From positions 1 to 5,459 of the forward strand of contig DAOVMD010000237.1 of the NCBI GenBank assembly GCA_030630935.1: 5,459 nt of DNA, written 5' to 3'. The notes under the pieces were generated by a model, which was given only the letters and a program-made list of their open reading frames with translations, had not been told where the DNA came from and did no database searches. This stretch comes from Candidatus Mcinerneyibacteriota bacterium (GTDB lineage: Bacteria; AUK180; JAQVHJ01). Position numbers and translations under genes: made by a program. Positions 1 to 5,196 of the stretch are shown here, one piece after another (the first letter of the stretch is position 1; each line of letters starts with the position of its first letter).

Positions 1-354
1 GTCACAAGTAATATTCAAGAACTTATTCAACACACTGAAAGAGTGGAAGAAATAAATGACGCGATCAAAGAAGGGAGTCAGTATGGAATGGTTTCGTTCG
101 ACCAGTCACTTCTTAAACTTTTACAAGATAAAATCATTTCTTATGATGAAGCATTATCCCATTCTTCTAATCCGAATGATTTTGCTCTCGCAGTCTCAGG
201 ATTCAAAACTAGTGGTGACCTTGAAAAAAATAAAACAGCAGATGAGATGATGCTGGGAAAGAAGAAATCACCAACGGGTGATAATCAGAATCAGGAAGAA
301 AAAGATGATGAACAAGGTTCTGATTCCGGAATTTCTCAAGGGTTCTTTGATTAA
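1..354 (+). CDS. Type IV pilus retraction ATPase, PilT/PilU family, C-terminal part (5' truncated)
   Basis: This is the last 117 residues of a secretion-type hexameric ATPase that works at the inner-membrane base of type IV pili and drives retraction. The frame is open to the first base, so the gene starts outside the window; the GTG at 43 is an internal Val codon. The family match is the C-terminal helical domain: visible residues 19-63 read like PilT, with EGSQYGMVSFDQSLLKLL followed by SYDEAL and the NPNDFAL ending. The Walker boxes lie upstream and cannot be checked. The segment at the position of the PilT AIRNLIRE retraction motif reads NIQELIQH, so the motif is divergent and a PilU or second PilT paralogue is as likely as PilT. 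After the family core (about residue 68) there is a polar, acidic tail of about 50 residues ending GFFD, longer than is usual. It lies 11 bases before the helicase gene and is probably co-transcribed with it. Confidence 0.85.
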   Translation, partial: VTSNIQELIQHTERVEEINDAIKEGSQYGMVSFDQSLLKLLQDKIISYDEALSHSSNPNDFALAVSGFKTSGDLEKNKTADEMMLGKKKSPTGDNQNQEEKDDEQGSDSGISQGFFD

Positions 355-365: not shown

Positions 366-2546
366 ATGAAAAAAATATTTAAGTTTCTAAATAATAAGCA
401 AAAAGAAGCAATTGAACGTGATGCGGGACCATTATTAATTTTAGGTGGACCGGGAACAGGAAAAACAACTACATTAATATACAAACTTTATCATCTGATT
501 AAAATTAAGAAAGTCAAACCTTCCGAAATCCTTATCCTGACCTCTAATAACAGTAACTTCAATTTCATTAGTGAGCAATTAAAATCGTTAATCTCCAGTT
601 CAATTAATGATTTATGGATAGGAACATTCTTTTCTATATTCTCAAGAATATTAAGAAATGAGATATATCGAATTAATTATTCCGGTGACTTTGTAATATA
701 TGATAAAGAAGATTCTTCTGATATGATAAACTCATGTTTGAAGGATCTTGAAATTGATCCAAAAATTTACCCCCCAAAAATATTCACGAATATAATTCTG
801 CGTCAGAAATATAGCCAGATATCTTCTGAACGATATATCGCAGATAAAACTCTTCATGAAAATGATTACTTTAATGAATTTGCAAAAGATGTGTACCAGT
901 TATATCAGAGTAGAATGAAAAAGAACAATGCATTGGACTATGGTGATATGCTTATGTTGACAGTCAAGATATTAAACGAAAATAAGACAGTACTCAAGAA
1001 ATATCAGAGCAAATTTAAATATATCTTCGTGGATGATTTTCAGGAAGTTAACTTTATTCAGAATTTATTCCTTAGGAAGATTTCAAAAAATGTAAAGCAA
1101 TATTGTGTAATCGGTAATGACGACCAGTCAATTATGCGGAATAAGGGAGCAAGCCTTCAAAATACCCTGAAATTTGAGAAGGAATATCGGAAGAAAAAAG
1201 TTCGATTAATTCAACTAACAAAAAATTATACTTGTTCACAAAATATACTTGATACAGCTGCATTATTAATTCAGAATAATGTAAGGAAAAAGAAAAGGCA
1301 AAAATTAACTAGTTCAAAACCAGGAACTTTTAACCCTAAGATAATCTTTATTGAGAATGAAAGGGCTGAAGCAAGATTAATAGCCCAGGAAATTCAGAGA
1401 TTACATAAAAAGCGAGTACCTTATCGTGAGATTGGAATTTTATATCGTTCTGCTGAGCAAGCTTATACAATTGAAAATCAATTAAGAAATTATAAAATTC
1501 CCTTCGAAACAATTCAACCTGAAAGTATATTCAAAGATAAACATGTAAAAGATCTGCTTGCATATATTAAGGTTTGCTTTAACAGATTTGACGAAATCAA
1601 TCTCCTTAGAATCATCAACCTCCCTAACCGTGGGATTGGCTTCAATACAATTGATAAATTACTCAGACTTGCAAGAAAAAAAAGAATCCCGCTCTGGGAA
1701 GTTATTAGTGAGAACCTGGATAAGAAATTGTTCTCTTCAAGAATAATTAAAAACATTAAAAGTTTCATTGAACTCATTAATAATATCTCACAAAATATTG
1801 ATTTAAAACCATCACAGATAATAACTCTTCTTATTAGGGTTTTAAAATATTTTGATTTTTTAAAGAAATCGGTTTCAAAATATTCTAAAGAAAAAATTGA
1901 AATAATCAATAAATTAATTTCCATTGCAAAGCATATGGAGGATACGGGCAAACTAACCAGCATCCCCGAATTCGTTCAAATGGTTTCATTATATGAAAAT
2001 GTCGATTTCTTTGAGAAGGGTCGAAATAAAGTTACTCTCATGGAAATGAAATCCTCAAAGGGCTTCAACTTCGACACAGTATTCGTATCAGGTATGGAAG
2101 ACGGTGTCATTCCACATTACTCATCATTAGAAGTTCCTCAGGATTTAGAAGAGGAGCGTAGATTATTTTATATTTCTATAACATGTTCGGAGAATAATCT
2201 TTACTTAATTAATGTAAAAGAAAGGAATATTTATAATAAACGAAATATATTCCCTCATTCGAGATTTATAAATGAAATTAAAACTGATAAAACCGAGATA
2301 ATTAATATTCTTAAATCCAAAGCGAAAAAGATTTTACCAACTGAAATTGAAATTGAAAATTCAACGGATTATTTTAAAATTGGAAGAAAAGTTGTTCACC
2401 CTATCTGGGGAAAAGGTATAATAAAAGAAATTTCAGGGTATTCGCCCGATTTAAAACTTACTATCCAATTTTCTCGTGCTGGAATTAAGAAAATTTCTTT
2501 AATATTCCTTAAGAAATTCCTAAAAAAAGAACATCAGAAAAAATAA
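366..2546 (+). CDS. UvrD/PcrA-like superfamily 1A helicase with degenerate catalytic motifs (probable pseudo-helicase)
   Basis: At 726 residues this matches full-length PcrA/UvrD, the 3'-5' DNA helicases of repair and replication. The motifs appear in family order. Q motif (Gln12) and Walker A GGPGTGKT (27-34, Lys33) are intact. Motif Ia reads LTSNNSNF (58-65) where TFTNKAA is usual. Ib is GTFFS (86-90; usually GTFHS). Walker B is VDDFQEVN (222-229; usually DExQDTN), so the catalytic Glu is Asp224. Motif III is DDQSIMRNKGA (252-262), lacking the usual aromatic Tyr and Trp/Phe and the Arg. Motif IV is KNYTC (286-290; usually NYRS), Arg to Thr289. Motif V is MEMKSSKGFNF (559-569; usually TLHSAKGLEF). 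Motif VI is EEERRLFYISITCSE (595-609; usually TRAE), Arg to Cys607. Residues 671-720 form the PcrA/UvrD Tudor domain (IGRKVVHPIWGKGII). ATP binding looks possible, but hydrolysis and unwinding are probably impaired. A fast-evolving active helicase remains the alternative. No frameshift or internal stop is present. Confidence 0.9.
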   Translation: MKKIFKFLNNKQKEAIERDAGPLLILGGPGTGKTTTLIYKLYHLIKIKKVKPSEILILTSNNSNFNFISEQLKSLISSSINDLWIGTFFSIFSRILRNEIYRINYSGDFVIYDKEDSSDMINSCLKDLEIDPKIYPPKIFTNIILRQKYSQISSERYIADKTLHENDYFNEFAKDVYQLYQSRMKKNNALDYGDMLMLTVKILNENKTVLKKYQSKFKYIFVDDFQEVNFIQNLFLRKISKNVKQYCVIGNDDQSIMRNKGASLQNTLKFEKEYRKKKVRLIQLTKNYTCSQNILDTAALLIQNNVRKKKRQKLTSSKPGTFNPKIIFIENERAEARLIAQEIQRLHKKRVPYREIGILYRSAEQAYTIENQLRNYKIPFETIQPESIFKDKHVKDLLAYIKVCFNRFDEINLLRIINLPNRGIGFNTIDKLLRLARKKRIPLWEVISENLDKKLFSSRIIKNIKSFIELINNISQNIDLKPSQIITLLIRVLKYFDFLKKSVSKYSKEKIEIINKLISIAKHMEDTGKLTSIPEFVQMVSLYENVDFFEKGRNKVTLMEMKSSKGFNFDTVFVSGMEDGVIPHYSSLEVPQDLEEERRLFYISITCSENNLYLINVKERNIYNKRNIFPHSRFINEIKTDKTEIINILKSKAKKILPTEIEIENSTDYFKIGRKVVHPIWGKGIIKEISGYSPDLKLTIQFSRAGIKKISLIFLKKFLKKEHQKK

Positions 2547-2549
2547 CAC

Positions 2550-2574
2550 ATTCGGTTAACTCCGTTAACCGAAT
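2550..2574. repeat. Perfect 11-bp inverted repeat just after the helicase stop
   Basis: ATTCGGTTAAC (2550-2560) pairs fully with GTTAACCGAAT (2564-2574) across a TCC loop, starting 3 bases after the stop codon. It could end or protect the 3' end of the pilus ATPase-helicase transcript. No T-run follows on the + strand (the next bases are purine heptads), so it is not a standard intrinsic terminator. It may instead be a dispersed palindromic repeat. Confidence 0.75.
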
Positions 2575-2604
2575 AGAGAGCAGAGAGCAGAGAACAGAAA
2601 ACAG
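2575..2604 (+). repeat. Purine-rich tandem array, 7-base period
   Basis: Four units follow directly on the hairpin: AGAGAGC, AGAGAGC, AGAGAAC, AGAAAAC, then AG. The units drift toward A from left to right. A similar stretch (AGAGAGC then AGAAAAAC) occurs at 5314-5328 in the same orientation. Such AGAGAGC strings are low-complexity intergenic repeats; no function is known to me. Confidence 0.75.
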
Positions 2605-2633
2605 TCGTTTTATAGATAAAAGTATTAAAGCAT

Positions 2634-2647
2634 CGTTATCAATAACG
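2634..2647. repeat. Small inverted repeat CGTTATCAATAACG
   Basis: CGTTA pairs with TAACG around a TCAA loop. It lies immediately before the GCAAAA that opens the first copy of the heptad element. It is short enough to occur by chance. Confidence 0.4.
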
Positions 2648-2740
2648 CAAAAACATTATTCATTATTCATTGTTACTTTCTACACCACGAATCTTACGTG
2701 GTTCGTTGGTTACTTGCGGAGCGAAGCGATGTAATTTTTT
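2647..2740 (+). repeat. Heptad-GAGCG element, copy 1 (with extra hairpin)
   Basis: The order is GCAAAA, then three 7-base units CATTATT, CATTATT, CATTGTT (2654-2674), then ACTTTCTAC, then a hairpin segment, then TTACTTGC and GAGCGAAGCGATGT (2719-2732), then a T-run (2735-2740). Copy 2 (3324-3395) has the same parts in the same order but lacks the hairpin segment. In that segment ACCACG (2684-2689) pairs with CGTGGT (2697-2702) over a 7-base loop. GCGAAGC is a sequence known to form an unusually stable DNA mini-hairpin. The function is unknown. Confidence 0.6.
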
Positions 2741-2763
2741 CTCCATGTCCTCCGTGTCCGGAG
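2741..2763 (+). repeat. Head of repeat copy A: 9-base-period units CTCCATGTC, CTCCGTGTC, then CGGAG
   Basis: Two tandem 9-base units (2741-2758) are followed by CGGAG. The equivalent place in copy C (3219-3232) has only one unit before the same CGGAG, so the unit number differs between copies. That is the mark of slippage or unit-number variation. Confidence 0.6.
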
Positions 2764-2764
2764 T

Positions 2765-2789
2765 TTACCCCGTTTTTTCTGGGTGGTAA
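2765..2789. repeat. Hairpin of repeat copy A
   Basis: TTACC (2765-2769) can pair with GGTAA (2785-2789), or ACCC (2767-2770) with GGGT (2781-2784), around a T6-containing loop. The same hairpin in a better-paired form is at 3234-3258. Confidence 0.55.
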
Positions 2790-2793
2790 GATA

Positions 2794-2898
2794 TTTTTGC
2801 ATTCAATAGATCCTTTAAGCACCTTTTGCTCTAAACAAACATAAATGAAATAAGTAAGTTCATTATAAGTCTCTTTAAAGTCACTGTTAATATTTTTT
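2794..2898 (+). repeat. Repeat body, copy A (about 105 bases)
   Basis: It runs from TTTTTGCATTCAAT through CTCTAAACAA and TTTAAAGTCACTGTTAA. It aligns from end to end with 3095-3198, about three quarters identical by eye with a few short gaps, and partly with 3262-3323. It has no open frame. A long imperfect direct repeat of this kind suggests either duplication within the region or several insertions of one non-coding element. Confidence 0.65.
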
Positions 2899-2958
2899 AA
2901 TTTTTATTTTTCCTTTTGTTTTATATTTTTTTATCGTATGGGTGTTTTATTTCTTATG

Positions 2959-3004
2959 GTCAGGGCAAAACCCTTAACCCCTACTGCATTGTCATATACA
3001 ATGT
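2959..3004. repeat. GC-richer island with two small hairpins
   Basis: AGGG-CAAAA-CCCT (2962-2974) is followed by ACCCCTAC and then CATTGT-CATAT-ACAATG (2987-3003). On the minus strand it reads GTAGGGGTTAAGGGTTTTG, which resembles the GTAGGGG-type intergenic repeats seen in many environmental genomes (recalled, not searched). It lies between bodies A and B, and no partner copy is present in this window. Confidence 0.4.
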
Positions 3005-3044
3005 AAATTAATTCTTCATTATTTTTTTAGGTGTTTTTATTTTT

Positions 3045-3071
3045 CTCTGCGAGCTCTGCGTCCTCTGCGGT
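3045..3071 (+). repeat. Head of repeat copy B: three 9-base units
   Basis: CTCTGCGAG, CTCTGCGTC and CTCTGCGGT form an exact 9-base period over 27 bases, followed by TAATATC. It holds the same place relative to its body (23 bases before TTTTTGC) that the CTCC units and hairpin hold for copy A, but its unit sequence differs. Strings of this CTCTGCG type are widespread in intergenic regions of unrelated bacteria, and their role is not established. Confidence 0.7.
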
Positions 3072-3094
3072 TAATATCTTTCTTTTTTTTGTTC

Positions 3095-3198
3095 TTTTTG
3101 CATTCAATCAAATCCTTAAGCAACTCCAGCTTTAAACAATAATAAACAATATTAATAAGTTACTTACAAGTCTATTTAAAGTCCCTGTAAAAAAAAAT
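3095..3198 (+). repeat. Repeat body, copy B
   Basis: This is the second full copy of the roughly 105-base body. It shares TTTTTGCATTCAAT at its start, TTTAAACAA in the middle and TATTTAAAGTCCCTGTAA at its end with copy A (2794-2898). It differs by scattered substitutions and small gaps, so the duplication is not recent. Confidence 0.65.
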
Positions 3199-3218
3199 CT
3201 CTTTTTACTTTTGTTTTT

Positions 3219-3258
3219 CTCCATGTTCGGAGTTTACCCCGTATTTTCGGGGTGGTAA
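3219..3258 (+). repeat. Head and hairpin of repeat copy C
   Basis: One unit CTCCATGTT and CGGAG (3219-3232) are followed by GTTTACCCCG. ACCCCG (3236-3241) pairs fully with CGGGGT (3248-3253) around TATTTT, and TTACC/GGTAA offers a second pairing outside it. It matches 2741-2789 apart from the missing 9-base unit and a few bases. Confidence 0.6.
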
Positions 3259-3261
3259 TAA

Positions 3262-3323
3262 TTTTACATTCGGTTGTTTACTAAGTACCCTCAGCTCTAA
3301 ACAAGTGCATTGTATTCTCTAAA
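3262..3323 (+). repeat. Repeat body, copy C, left part (interrupted)
   Basis: TTTTACATTC ... CAGCTCTAAACAA ... ATTCTCTAAA follows the left two thirds of bodies A and B. The match breaks off after TCTCTAAAG, where bodies A and B continue to TCACTG or TCCCTG. The missing right end reappears at 3414-3424 as GTCACTGTTAA, after the intervening heptad-GAGCG element. Confidence 0.5.
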
Positions 3324-3395
3324 GCAAAACCATTATTCATTCTTCATTGTTCATTGTTACTTTTTACTTGCTGAGCGAAGCGATGTTATTTTTTT
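3324..3395 (+). repeat. Heptad-GAGCG element, copy 2
   Basis: GCAAAAC, four 7-base units CATTATT, CATTCTT, CATTGTT, CATTGTT (3331-3358), then ACTTTTTACTTGC, then GAGCGAAGCGATGT (3373-3386) and a T-run (3389-3395). Compared with copy 1 it has one more heptad and lacks the hairpin segment. The 14-base GAGCG core is identical in both copies. Confidence 0.6.
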
Positions 3396-3436
3396 ATCCC
3401 CTTAATCCCGTATGTCACTGTTAAAAAATCTTTTCC

Positions 3437-3465
3437 TTGATTTTTTACTGAAATTATGTTATACT
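3437..3465 (+). promoter_or_regulatory. Extended -10 sigma70-type promoter of the receiver/EAL operon
   Basis: TTGATT (3437-3442) and TATACT (3460-3465) are separated by exactly 17 bases, with an extended -10 TG at 3457-3458. Transcription would start near 3472, giving a leader of about 25 bases before the ATG at 3497. Both boxes are close to consensus, so basal expression should be strong. The layout argues against the Bacteroidota-type promoter (TAnnTTTG). Confidence 0.75.
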
Positions 3466-3480
3466 TTTATCTAATAATAA

Positions 3481-3487
3481 AAGGGGG
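3481..3487 (+). promoter_or_regulatory. Ribosome binding site of the receiver gene
   Basis: AAGGGGG lies 9 bases before the ATG at 3497 and supports that start. Confidence 0.65.
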
Positions 3488-3496
3488 TTAGCTTTA

Positions 3497-3886
3497 ATGA
3501 AAAGCGAGAAAGGTAAAAAAGTAATCTTAATAATAGACGATGAAGAAGACATTTTGAAGCTCTGTAAGATTGTACTTGAGAAGGAAGGTTTTAAAGTGTA
3601 TACCTCCCAAGTCGCCAAACTAGGCATTGACACAGCTACATCGGTCATTCCGGAATTAATTTTATTAGATATAATGATGCCTGTTATGGATGGTTGGGAA
3701 GTATTAAAGATTTTAAGAGCTGAAGATGTAACGAAAGAGATTCCAATTGCAATGTTAACCGCAAAAACAGACTTTAAAGATAAGATCATGGGGATTCAGG
3801 AAGGAGCTATTGACTATATCAGCAAACCATTCCTGCCGCAAGAACTAATATTTCGGGTAAAAAGGATATTTCAGGAAATTAATTAA
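3497..3886 (+). CDS. Stand-alone CheY-like response regulator receiver
   Basis: This 129-residue cytoplasmic protein is a single phosphoreceiver domain with no output domain. All active-site residues are present: the acidic pair Asp14-Asp15, phosphoacceptor Asp58 (in LILLDIMMP), Thr88 (MLTAK), aromatic Tyr107, and Lys110 in the SKPF turn. It should therefore accept phosphate from a histidine kinase and switch conformation. No kinase gene is in the window. It is the first gene of a two-gene unit with the EAL protein 5 bases downstream, so its likely job is to report a signal to that c-di-GMP enzyme, by direct contact or through a shared pathway; this partner assignment is inferred from position only. 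The length and start fit the family, with a strong promoter and a good ribosome binding site upstream. The seven residues before the first strand are Lys-rich. Confidence 0.93.
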   Translation: MKSEKGKKVILIIDDEEDILKLCKIVLEKEGFKVYTSQVAKLGIDTATSVIPELILLDIMMPVMDGWEVLKILRAEDVTKEIPIAMLTAKTDFKDKIMGIQEGAIDYISKPFLPQELIFRVKRIFQEIN

Positions 3887-3891
3887 TTACA

Positions 3892-5196
3892 ATGAAAAAA
3901 GCTAATAAGAAAACAGGACAAACATCTTCAAAATCAGATATTTTAAAGTATAAAAATGCTCTTTATGATTCATCTATGGATCTACCCTCATACTCTCTGG
4001 TGTTAGATGAGATAAGAAAACGGCTTGATGAATCGAAAGTTTGCGGGTTAATATTTTTATCTGTTGCAAATTCCAGTAAATTTGAATATACCTACGGTTG
4101 GGAAGCATTTGATAATGTTTTAAAATTTATATCAACAAATCTGAAAGAGTATATTCAAAAAGACTCTACGCATTCACCTCTTCTAACAATTAGAAATATC
4201 AGGAATGACGAGTTCATTATTTTCTTCTTCGAGGATCAAATAACCCATGACCTTACTATTGACTTATTAAATGAAAAGATTTTTGAAATTGAGAGATTTT
4301 TAATAAAGAACGCTAAATTTAATGCTGATTTCTCATATAAATATCCGGTTAACTTCAACCTTGGTTATTCAATTCTTAGTATGAATCCACTTGTCCGATT
4401 TGAAAGGATGCTGTATAACTCAATTAGAGACGCATATTTAATGGCGCATTACAGAGAACAGAATCTGGACTTCAAGATGAAATCCGAACTTCACCGAATC
4501 ATTGCAGAATCACAGATCAGAACTGTATTTCAACCGATATATGATTTAGTCAATATGAAAATCCATGGATTTGAAGCATTGACCAGAGGTCCGGAAAACT
4601 CAATCTTTGAAGACCCTGAAACTATGTTCACCTTTGCATTGCACTCTGATTTAATTACCGAGCTGGATAGAATATGTAGAACAAATGCCTTGCTCCTTTC
4701 AAAAAAAATTCCGGATAATTTCAAGTTATTCTTAAATACAGAAGTTCAGACAATGTACACTCCGGATTTCCTTGAGGGGAAAATTCTTGAGTTTTTAGAA
4801 GCTCATGATTTAAATCCTCAAAATATCGTAATTGAAATCACCGAACGATCAGCAATTGAGAATTATCAGAAGTTTAGAAGCATATTAAAAGTAATTAGAT
4901 CTTTAAAATTTAACATCGCTCTTGATGATGCAGGGGTCGGCTATGCATCACTGCAGACAATTACAGAAATCAATCCTAGATACCTCAAAATTGACCATTC
5001 CTTAGTGAAGGATATAGATAAAAACTTGATTAGAAAACATTTAATACAGACGTTATTAGATTTTTCAGAAAAAACCGATATCTTACTAATTGCTGAAGGG
5101 ATTGAAAGAGAAGAAGAATTGAAAACCCTTCAAGACCTTGGAATTCATTATGGTCAGGGATTTTATCTTGGGAGACCCTCCTTCGATCTCGGATAA
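3892..5196 (+). CDS. c-di-GMP phosphodiesterase: degenerate GGDEF domain plus intact EAL domain
   Basis: This 434-residue protein has no signal peptide or membrane segment. Residues 25-190 are a GGDEF-like fold: DLP (30-32) stands where TGLP is usual, and the active loop reads IRNDEF (103-108) where GGDEF is required. The region that normally holds the metal-binding DxD/E reads LSVANS (56-61), so cyclase activity is not expected. Residues 200-430 are an EAL domain with the known catalytic set: Glu228 (EALTR), Asn282, Glu315 (EITE), Asp345-Asp346 (DDAGVGYASL), Lys366 (LKID), Glu402 (AEGIE) and Gln422 (QGFYLGRP). It should hydrolyse c-di-GMP to pGpG. The GGDEF remnant may be regulatory or serve dimerisation. 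The ATG lies 5 bases after the receiver stop. The nearest AGGA (3873-3876) is 15 bases upstream, rather far, so translational coupling to the receiver is likely. Confidence 0.92.
   Translation: MKKANKKTGQTSSKSDILKYKNALYDSSMDLPSYSLVLDEIRKRLDESKVCGLIFLSVANSSKFEYTYGWEAFDNVLKFISTNLKEYIQKDSTHSPLLTIRNIRNDEFIIFFFEDQITHDLTIDLLNEKIFEIERFLIKNAKFNADFSYKYPVNFNLGYSILSMNPLVRFERMLYNSIRDAYLMAHYREQNLDFKMKSELHRIIAESQIRTVFQPIYDLVNMKIHGFEALTRGPENSIFEDPETMFTFALHSDLITELDRICRTNALLLSKKIPDNFKLFLNTEVQTMYTPDFLEGKILEFLEAHDLNPQNIVIEITERSAIENYQKFRSILKVIRSLKFNIALDDAGVGYASLQTITEINPRYLKIDHSLVKDIDKNLIRKHLIQTLLDFSEKTDILLIAEGIEREEELKTLQDLGIHYGQGFYLGRPSFDLG

Follow-up and report, generated by a model that had tools for sequence, protein, structure and literature searches.

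Genes at the locus

The whole stretch of DNA analysed here (the window; 5,459 nucleotides from a Candidatus Mcinerneyibacteriota bacterium) carries a gene of the PcrA/UvrD type, whose product we refer to as P0001, between the 3' end of a gene which we take, from reading its sequence, to be pilT and a pair of genes encoding receiver and EAL-domain proteins. The genes are arranged as follows:

1–354, forward strand: 3' end of pilT, upstream neighbour (read from sequence)
366–2546, forward strand: P0001 (726 amino acids), a PcrA/UvrD orthologue whose motor motifs are degenerate
3497–3886, forward strand: response-regulator receiver protein, downstream neighbour, also present in the sister genome
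3892–5196, forward strand: EAL-domain protein, downstream neighbour, also present in the sister genome

Neither a Pfam scan of the pilT fragment (1–354) nor an Rfam search of the window gave a match. The frame encoding P0001 opens with an ATG 11 bases past the putative pilT stop, with the sequence AGGAAA 5 bases ahead of it, and runs through 726 codons with no internal stops (366–2546), bearing out the intact frame described in an earlier, sequence-only reading of this DNA.

Our sample of the phylum comprises seven genomes. Family f1 is represented by the source genome (G000) and by the sister genome of bacterium STE_202 (G001; same family, another genus), and family f2 by the five other class genomes. 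Both f1 genomes are incomplete MAGs, with completeness of about 80% and 72%, and one has about 2.3x coverage. A scan of genome contigs for further orthologues of P0001 returned only the STE_202 contig, which encodes a 725-residue protein (P0002); the known f1 orthologues number two.

The pilT gene lies directly upstream of the pcrA locus in 7/7 class genomes. The linkage is direct in four f2 genomes and runs via overlapping contig ends in the fifth (G004); the sister-genome contig opens with an apparent pilT C-terminus, and for the source genome the linkage is seen in the window itself. All five f2 genomes encode a canonical PcrA directly behind pilT, one each, at that locus. Searches of the source genome with PF00580, PF13361 and P0001 itself recovered, besides P0001, only AddA and no second PcrA/UvrD, while the same searches of the sister genome recovered AddA together with a truncated, itself degenerate UvrD-like protein and no canonical PcrA/UvrD. 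The locus shared with canonical PcrA and the lack of a second copy make P0001 the positional orthologue of PcrA. The earlier reading had proposed a paralogue, and had named the absence of any other PcrA/UvrD beforehand as an outcome that would speak against its proposal; since synteny and the searches of both f1 genomes agree on this point we reject the paralogue label and regard the protein as an orthologue that lost its motor. Because the canonical class-mates have the same pilT neighbour, the genomic context does not point to a new role. In the gene tree both families sit on long branches (stem lengths of 2.6 for f1 and 2.2 for f2) over an unresolved backbone, and an AU test on this long-branch single-gene tree did not reject f1 and f2 as one clade (p-AU = 0.456).

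Downstream, the receiver and EAL pair (3497–5196) adjoins the pseudo-helicase gene in both f1 genera. EAL paralogues with an adjoining receiver gene occur elsewhere in the source genome (L078) and the sister genome (L079), with similar pairs in class members (L073–L075). A non-coding gap of ~950 bases (2547–3496) separates the pseudo-helicase from the response regulator; the same gap measures 92 bases in the sister genome. It contains repeats of dispersed families, with copies of 124, 54, 47 and 31 nt that are 73–94% identical.

Domain architecture and predicted fold

P0001 scores above cut-off for PF00580, PF13361 and PF21196 (Pfam), corresponding to the UvrD-helicase N and C domains and the PcrA/UvrD Tudor domain, which are collinear over the full length and give a complete 1A-1B-2A-2B-Tudor architecture. 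The TIGR01073 match spans residues 6–714, end to end, yet scores 550 bits against an NCBIfam equivalog threshold of 911 bits. An AlphaFold2 model (mean pLDDT 72) predicts the four-domain UvrD fold, with TM scores of 0.72–0.76 against 3pjr/2is6 and a Z of 39.5 against 2is1 (617 residues, rmsd 4.4); the motif III loop (253–264) is a low-confidence stretch of the model. The domains outside the motor core, with approximate boundaries, are:

690–941, forward strand: 1B domain, residues 109–192 (approximate), with the top identity between the two orthologues (77%)
1512–2009, forward strand: 2B domain, residues 383–548 (approximate), of which residues 401–425 are 92% identical between the orthologues
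2370–2513, forward strand: Tudor domain, residues 669–716, with the RNA-polymerase-contact residues H678, W681 and K708 kept

Loss of motor residues in P0001

The motor motifs were compared with those of PcrA (1pjr) and 28 further canonical PcrA/UvrD proteins (29 in all); the 1pjr sequence used in these comparisons was hand-transcribed, over nearly its whole length, from a printed alignment. The motifs of P0001 are:

444–467, forward strand: Walker A GGPGTGKT, residues 27–34, kept
528–569, forward strand: degenerate motif Ia ILILTSNNSNFNFI, F64 replaced by Ser60
615–638, forward strand: degenerate motif Ib WIGTFFSI, H93 replaced by Phe89
1029–1052, forward strand: Walker B VDDFQEVN, catalytic Glu replaced by Asp224 (1035–1037)
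1113–1151, forward strand: degenerate motif III GNDDQSIMRNKGA
1215–1247, forward strand: degenerate motif IV LTKNYTCSQNI, Arg finger R287 replaced by Thr289 (1230–1232)
2031–2081, forward strand: degenerate motif V VTLMEMKSSKGFNFDTV, Lys-Gly kept, H565 replaced by Lys and E571 by Asn
2148–2198, forward strand: degenerate motif VI EEERRLFYISITCSENN, Arg finger R610 replaced by Cys607 (2184–2186)

The Walker B Glu and the Arg fingers of motifs IV and VI are thus absent from P0001. The equivalent residues E224, R287 and R610 (PcrA numbering) are invariant in 29/29 canonical proteins, and codon arithmetic confirmed Asp224, Thr289 and Cys607 at the codons that the sequence-only reading had assigned to them. 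Its list of departures in motifs Ia, Ib, III and V also held: F64 is changed to Ser and H93 to Phe, and motif III reads GNDDQSIMRNKG in place of the canonical GDxDQSIYxWRG, with D251 lost, Y257 replaced by Met, W259 by Asn and R260 by Lys, while motif V departs at T563, H565 and E571 (PcrA numbering). Alignment likewise supports the residues said to be retained, namely Gln12 of the Q motif, Lys33, Asp223, Gln226, Gln254 and the motif V Lys-Gly (K565 and G566). In total, P0001 is off consensus at 24/69 columns that do not vary across a separate, independent set of 24 canonical sequences, compared with 2–4 for its canonical class-mates. Judged from the sequence, these departures far exceed chance or ordinary divergence, and they back well the conclusion that P0001 has very probably lost its motor; its function we infer.

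A degenerate orthologue in a sister genus

P0001 and P0002 are 61% identical over their full length, and the sister protein is degenerate as well. Both lack the residues that stack on or couple to ssDNA (F64, H93, D251, Y257, W259, R260, H565 and E571) as well as the first Arg finger, R287, several with different replacements. Among the three sites flagged by the earlier reading, only R287 is lost in both proteins (Thr in P0001, Ile in P0002). P0002 keeps Glu224 and the motif VI Arg (Arg605), so Asp224 and Cys607 fall as conserved features of the family. P0002 has losses of its own, in which Q226 is replaced by His, Q254 by Glu, K568 by Arg and G569 by Asp (PcrA numbering). Parsimony over two leaves and outgroups suggests that the common ancestor had already lost one Arg finger along with the ssDNA-coupling sites, with further catalytic residues probably decaying separately. 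The nucleotide-binding residues Q12, K33 and T34 of the Q motif and Walker A are kept in both proteins. With Asp223 also kept in both, it is plausible that P0001 binds ATP.

Constraint has moved away from the motor

Constraint was assessed at the 69 columns that are invariant in the 24 canonical sequences, f1 and f2 having been left out of their definition. P0001 and P0002 differ from one another at 24/69 of these columns and at 260/655 columns elsewhere (ratio 0.88, p = 0.52), such that formerly invariant sites in f1 change no slower than the remainder of the protein. In canonical f2 pairs that have diverged to a similar extent, only 1–2 of the 69 columns differ (ratio 0.03–0.06, p < 1e-15), and the f1 pair is distinct from the f2 pair at these columns (p = 1.6e-7). 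The constraint on domains is inverted in f1, where 1B and Tudor are the most conserved (77% and 73% identity), followed by 2B (66%), and the motor domain 2A is the least (51% for 2A-b); in the f2 pair L014/L021 the corresponding values are 54% for 1B, 69% for Tudor, 47% for 2B and 70% for 2A-b.

For the f1 pair pN is 0.25 and pS is 0.75, at which synonymous sites are saturated, giving pN/pS values of 0.34 overall and 0.19 in 1B. The earlier reading had asked whether dN/dS lies near 1; with dS saturated, the overall pN/pS of about 0.34 does not, and the gene is under purifying selection, which remains strong in the 1B and Tudor domains and at the beginning of 2B. Drifting catalytic sites in a protein otherwise under purifying selection are what is expected of a pseudo-helicase. 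The idea of a conserved pseudo-helicase consequently stands as regards motor loss at independent sites, a constrained frame and an orthologue at 61% identity that is also degenerate, though not as regards the particular substitutions that were named.

A pseudogene or sequencing artefact was considered and ruled out by the open frame in two independent assemblies together with the pN/pS of 0.34. An artefact is further countered by the concentration of the changes in motifs and by AddA of the f1 genomes, whose SF1A motifs are canonical as far as assembly and a simple pattern check reach, an argument against sequencing error or genome-wide decay.

The RNA-polymerase-binding surface

The PcrA Tudor domain binds RNA polymerase via a surface with H681, W684, K712 and L714 (G. 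stearothermophilus numbering; PMC5397179); in RpoB it recognises a motif that contains TGE (PMC8318588). Both f1 proteins keep the His, Trp and Lys (H678, W681 and K708 in P0001), while L714 is replaced by Ile (Ile710), a conservative change seen in canonical proteins too. The helicase-interaction motif of RpoB reads INETTGEIV in the source genome and INETTGEVV in the sister genome. In the few class-mates compared that have a canonical PcrA, the same site reads ITSQGEVI, ISKKGDVL or ITSKGDVI, with TGE not intact. The f1 proteins are also unusually basic, with net charges of +47 (P0001) and +28 against a range of -22 to +20 for canonical proteins.

Separately, rpoB and rpoC are apparently fused in one ORF in the source genome and in four class members (L112–L116); the open frames span 2414–2804 amino acids and include the NADFDGDQ motif of RpoC.

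Comparison with known systems

P0001 resembles PcrA/UvrD (TIGR01073/TIGR01075; 1pjr, 3pjr, 2is1, 2is6) in domain order including the Tudor domain, fold, locus in class-mates, Walker A and RNA-polymerase-contact residues. It differs in having lost the catalytic Glu, the two Arg fingers and the residues that stack on ssDNA, in being strongly basic, and in its lower TIGR01073 score.

HelD, an SF1-type RNA-polymerase recycling factor, keeps its ATPase and has insertion domains of its own. It shares UvrD-like RecA folds with P0001 and acts on RNA polymerase; P0001 was rejected as a HelD-type protein on its weak match to the HelD profile (E about 1e-4), and its structural Z of 16.7 against 6wvk is lower than that against PcrA/UvrD.

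AddB and RecC, subunits of helicase-nuclease complexes, are inactivated UvrD-type SF1A folds kept for another task (PMC4824097), and offer the best precedent for P0001. Like P0001 they combine this fold with lost motor motifs, and they stay functional. They are, however, large subunits in which most or all motifs are absent, whereas P0001 is free-standing and of PcrA length, has a Tudor domain and keeps Walker A intact. A Pfam scan of P0001 found no nuclease or nuclease-like domain and nothing beyond the Tudor domain, so that no fusion of the AddB/RecC type was encountered, and the source genome carries addA- and addB-like genes separately.

A second family of UvrD-like pseudo-helicases (PU2, ~656 amino acids) occurs in 6/7 genomes of the phylum sample (L038:1300-3270 in G003; L088–L092; L037:3-1718 in the sister genome, 5' truncated). 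It was not found in the source-genome assembly, one of the two MAGs of about 80% and 72% completeness. Like P0001 it is of UvrD type, has lost motor motifs and belongs to the same genome group. Unlike P0001 it has also lost Walker A (GDEISMKRT), along with Walker B (IDDYHYSS) and motifs III and IV; it ends at motif V, has no Tudor domain and carries an N-terminal extension of ~55 amino acids. Copies from other f2 genera are 65–72% identical to the G003 copy, compared with 53–58% for canonical PcrA between f2 genera. At L038, L091 and L092 the PU2 gene lies between an ORF with helix-hairpin-helix repeats, presumably ComEA-like from our reading of its sequence, and a presumably ComEC-like metallo-hydrolase ORF named in the same way. 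The stop of the ComEA-like ORF overlaps or abuts the PU2 start, and the neighbourhood suggests a DNA-uptake operon.

Proposed role and alternatives

In the f1 lineage motor residues have been lost, selection has been kept, and the Tudor residues and RpoB motif have been kept with it. We favour, with a probability of roughly 0.6, a reading in which P0001 is a vertically inherited PcrA/UvrD orthologue that was once a DNA motor and has become a non-catalytic protein tethered to RNA polymerase. Given motor loss, an adaptor role at the polymerase is fairly probable, and we prefer it because the Tudor residues and the TGE motif of RpoB are kept and the proteins are unusually basic; the absence of hydrolysis, the binding to RNA polymerase and the adaptor function itself are what we infer from these features. 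P0001 would bind nucleotide without productive hydrolysis, and would neither translocate nor unwind. Its Tudor domain (H678, W681, K708) would hold it on RNA polymerase via the INETTGEIV motif of RpoB, and might possibly also meet UvrB. At stalled elongation complexes, the basic body and the conserved 1B/2B surfaces would then make contacts with nucleic acid or partners.

A natural point of comparison is ATPase-dead PcrA E224Q, which retains its DNA site and in B. subtilis is toxic and dominant-negative and raises R-loops (PMC8318588). In this laboratory mutant, as in P0001, the Walker B Glu is replaced and a block in hydrolysis is expected. P0001 differs in that its ssDNA site is lost too and in being maintained in nature, and the joint loss of the ssDNA pocket and hydrolysis may make a dead motor tolerable.

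An alternative which we consider unlikely, though the strongest of those weighed, is that motor-dead PcrA serves as a structural partner via 1B/2B, for instance paired with an active helicase or AddAB as a heterodimer, and has its main task away from RNA polymerase. Conservation between the orthologues is indeed highest in 1B and the first part of 2B, the source genome has addAB genes, the phylum has a second pseudo-UvrD family in PU2, and there is a precedent in the support of AddA/RecB by AddB/RecC (PMC4824097). We found no candidate partner and no operon shared with a helicase, however, and the Tudor domain and its contact residues, which would be needless for a pure 1B/2B role, are conserved as well.

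It is improbable that P0001 is still an active divergent helicase or ssDNA-stimulated ATPase, with Asp224 as the base and other Arg/Lys residues as fingers. The protein is under selection with Walker A, the Q motif and Asp223 kept, along with Gln254 and the motif V Lys-Gly in P0001, and in the sister protein, where Glu224 and the Arg of motif VI persist, some residual ATPase is conceivable. Against this, P0001 has neither of the Arg fingers, has lost the catalytic Glu and lacks the residues that stack on ssDNA, and a re-engineered active site would be conserved, whereas the orthologues disagree at 24/69 invariant sites.

The paralogue reading requires a canonical PcrA/UvrD elsewhere in the genome, which the incomplete assemblies could be missing. 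We judge it very unlikely, given the locus shared with canonical PcrA in five class-mates, each with one copy there, and the lack of a second copy in either f1 genome; that the missing sequence of both genomes hides a canonical UvrD is itself improbable (about 6%, taking the gaps to be independent of each other). Least probable of all is a decaying gene on its way to loss and open only through recency, since fast change in the motor domains is accompanied by full-length open frames in two genera at saturated synonymous sites, by low pN/pS and by a conserved Tudor domain.

Implications

PcrA/UvrD proteins are among the most widespread bacterial helicases, and how far they depend on their motor at RNA polymerase is still debated. 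A literature search covering few subscription journals returned no free-standing motor-dead PcrA/UvrD orthologue and no UvrD pseudohelicases, and one of the same coverage for PcrA R287A/R610A mutants found none. With P0001, the short list of known inactivated SF1A folds (AddB, RecC) gains a free-standing pseudo-helicase of PcrA length, and the two sampled orthologues show the ssDNA-coupling sites gone in both with the hydrolysis machinery partly lost separately. We tentatively suggest, at somewhat less than even odds, that this lineage replaced its sole PcrA/UvrD by a non-catalytic descendant keeping the RNA-polymerase-binding surface, which would mean that the adaptor function is separable from the motor and selectable alone. 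A motor-less orthologue with a polymerase-binding surface would, if the reading is true, be a separation-of-function mutant made by evolution, and the structural role of PcrA/UvrD in transcription-coupled repair or R-loop control would become directly testable, as would the question of what replaces its helicase activity.
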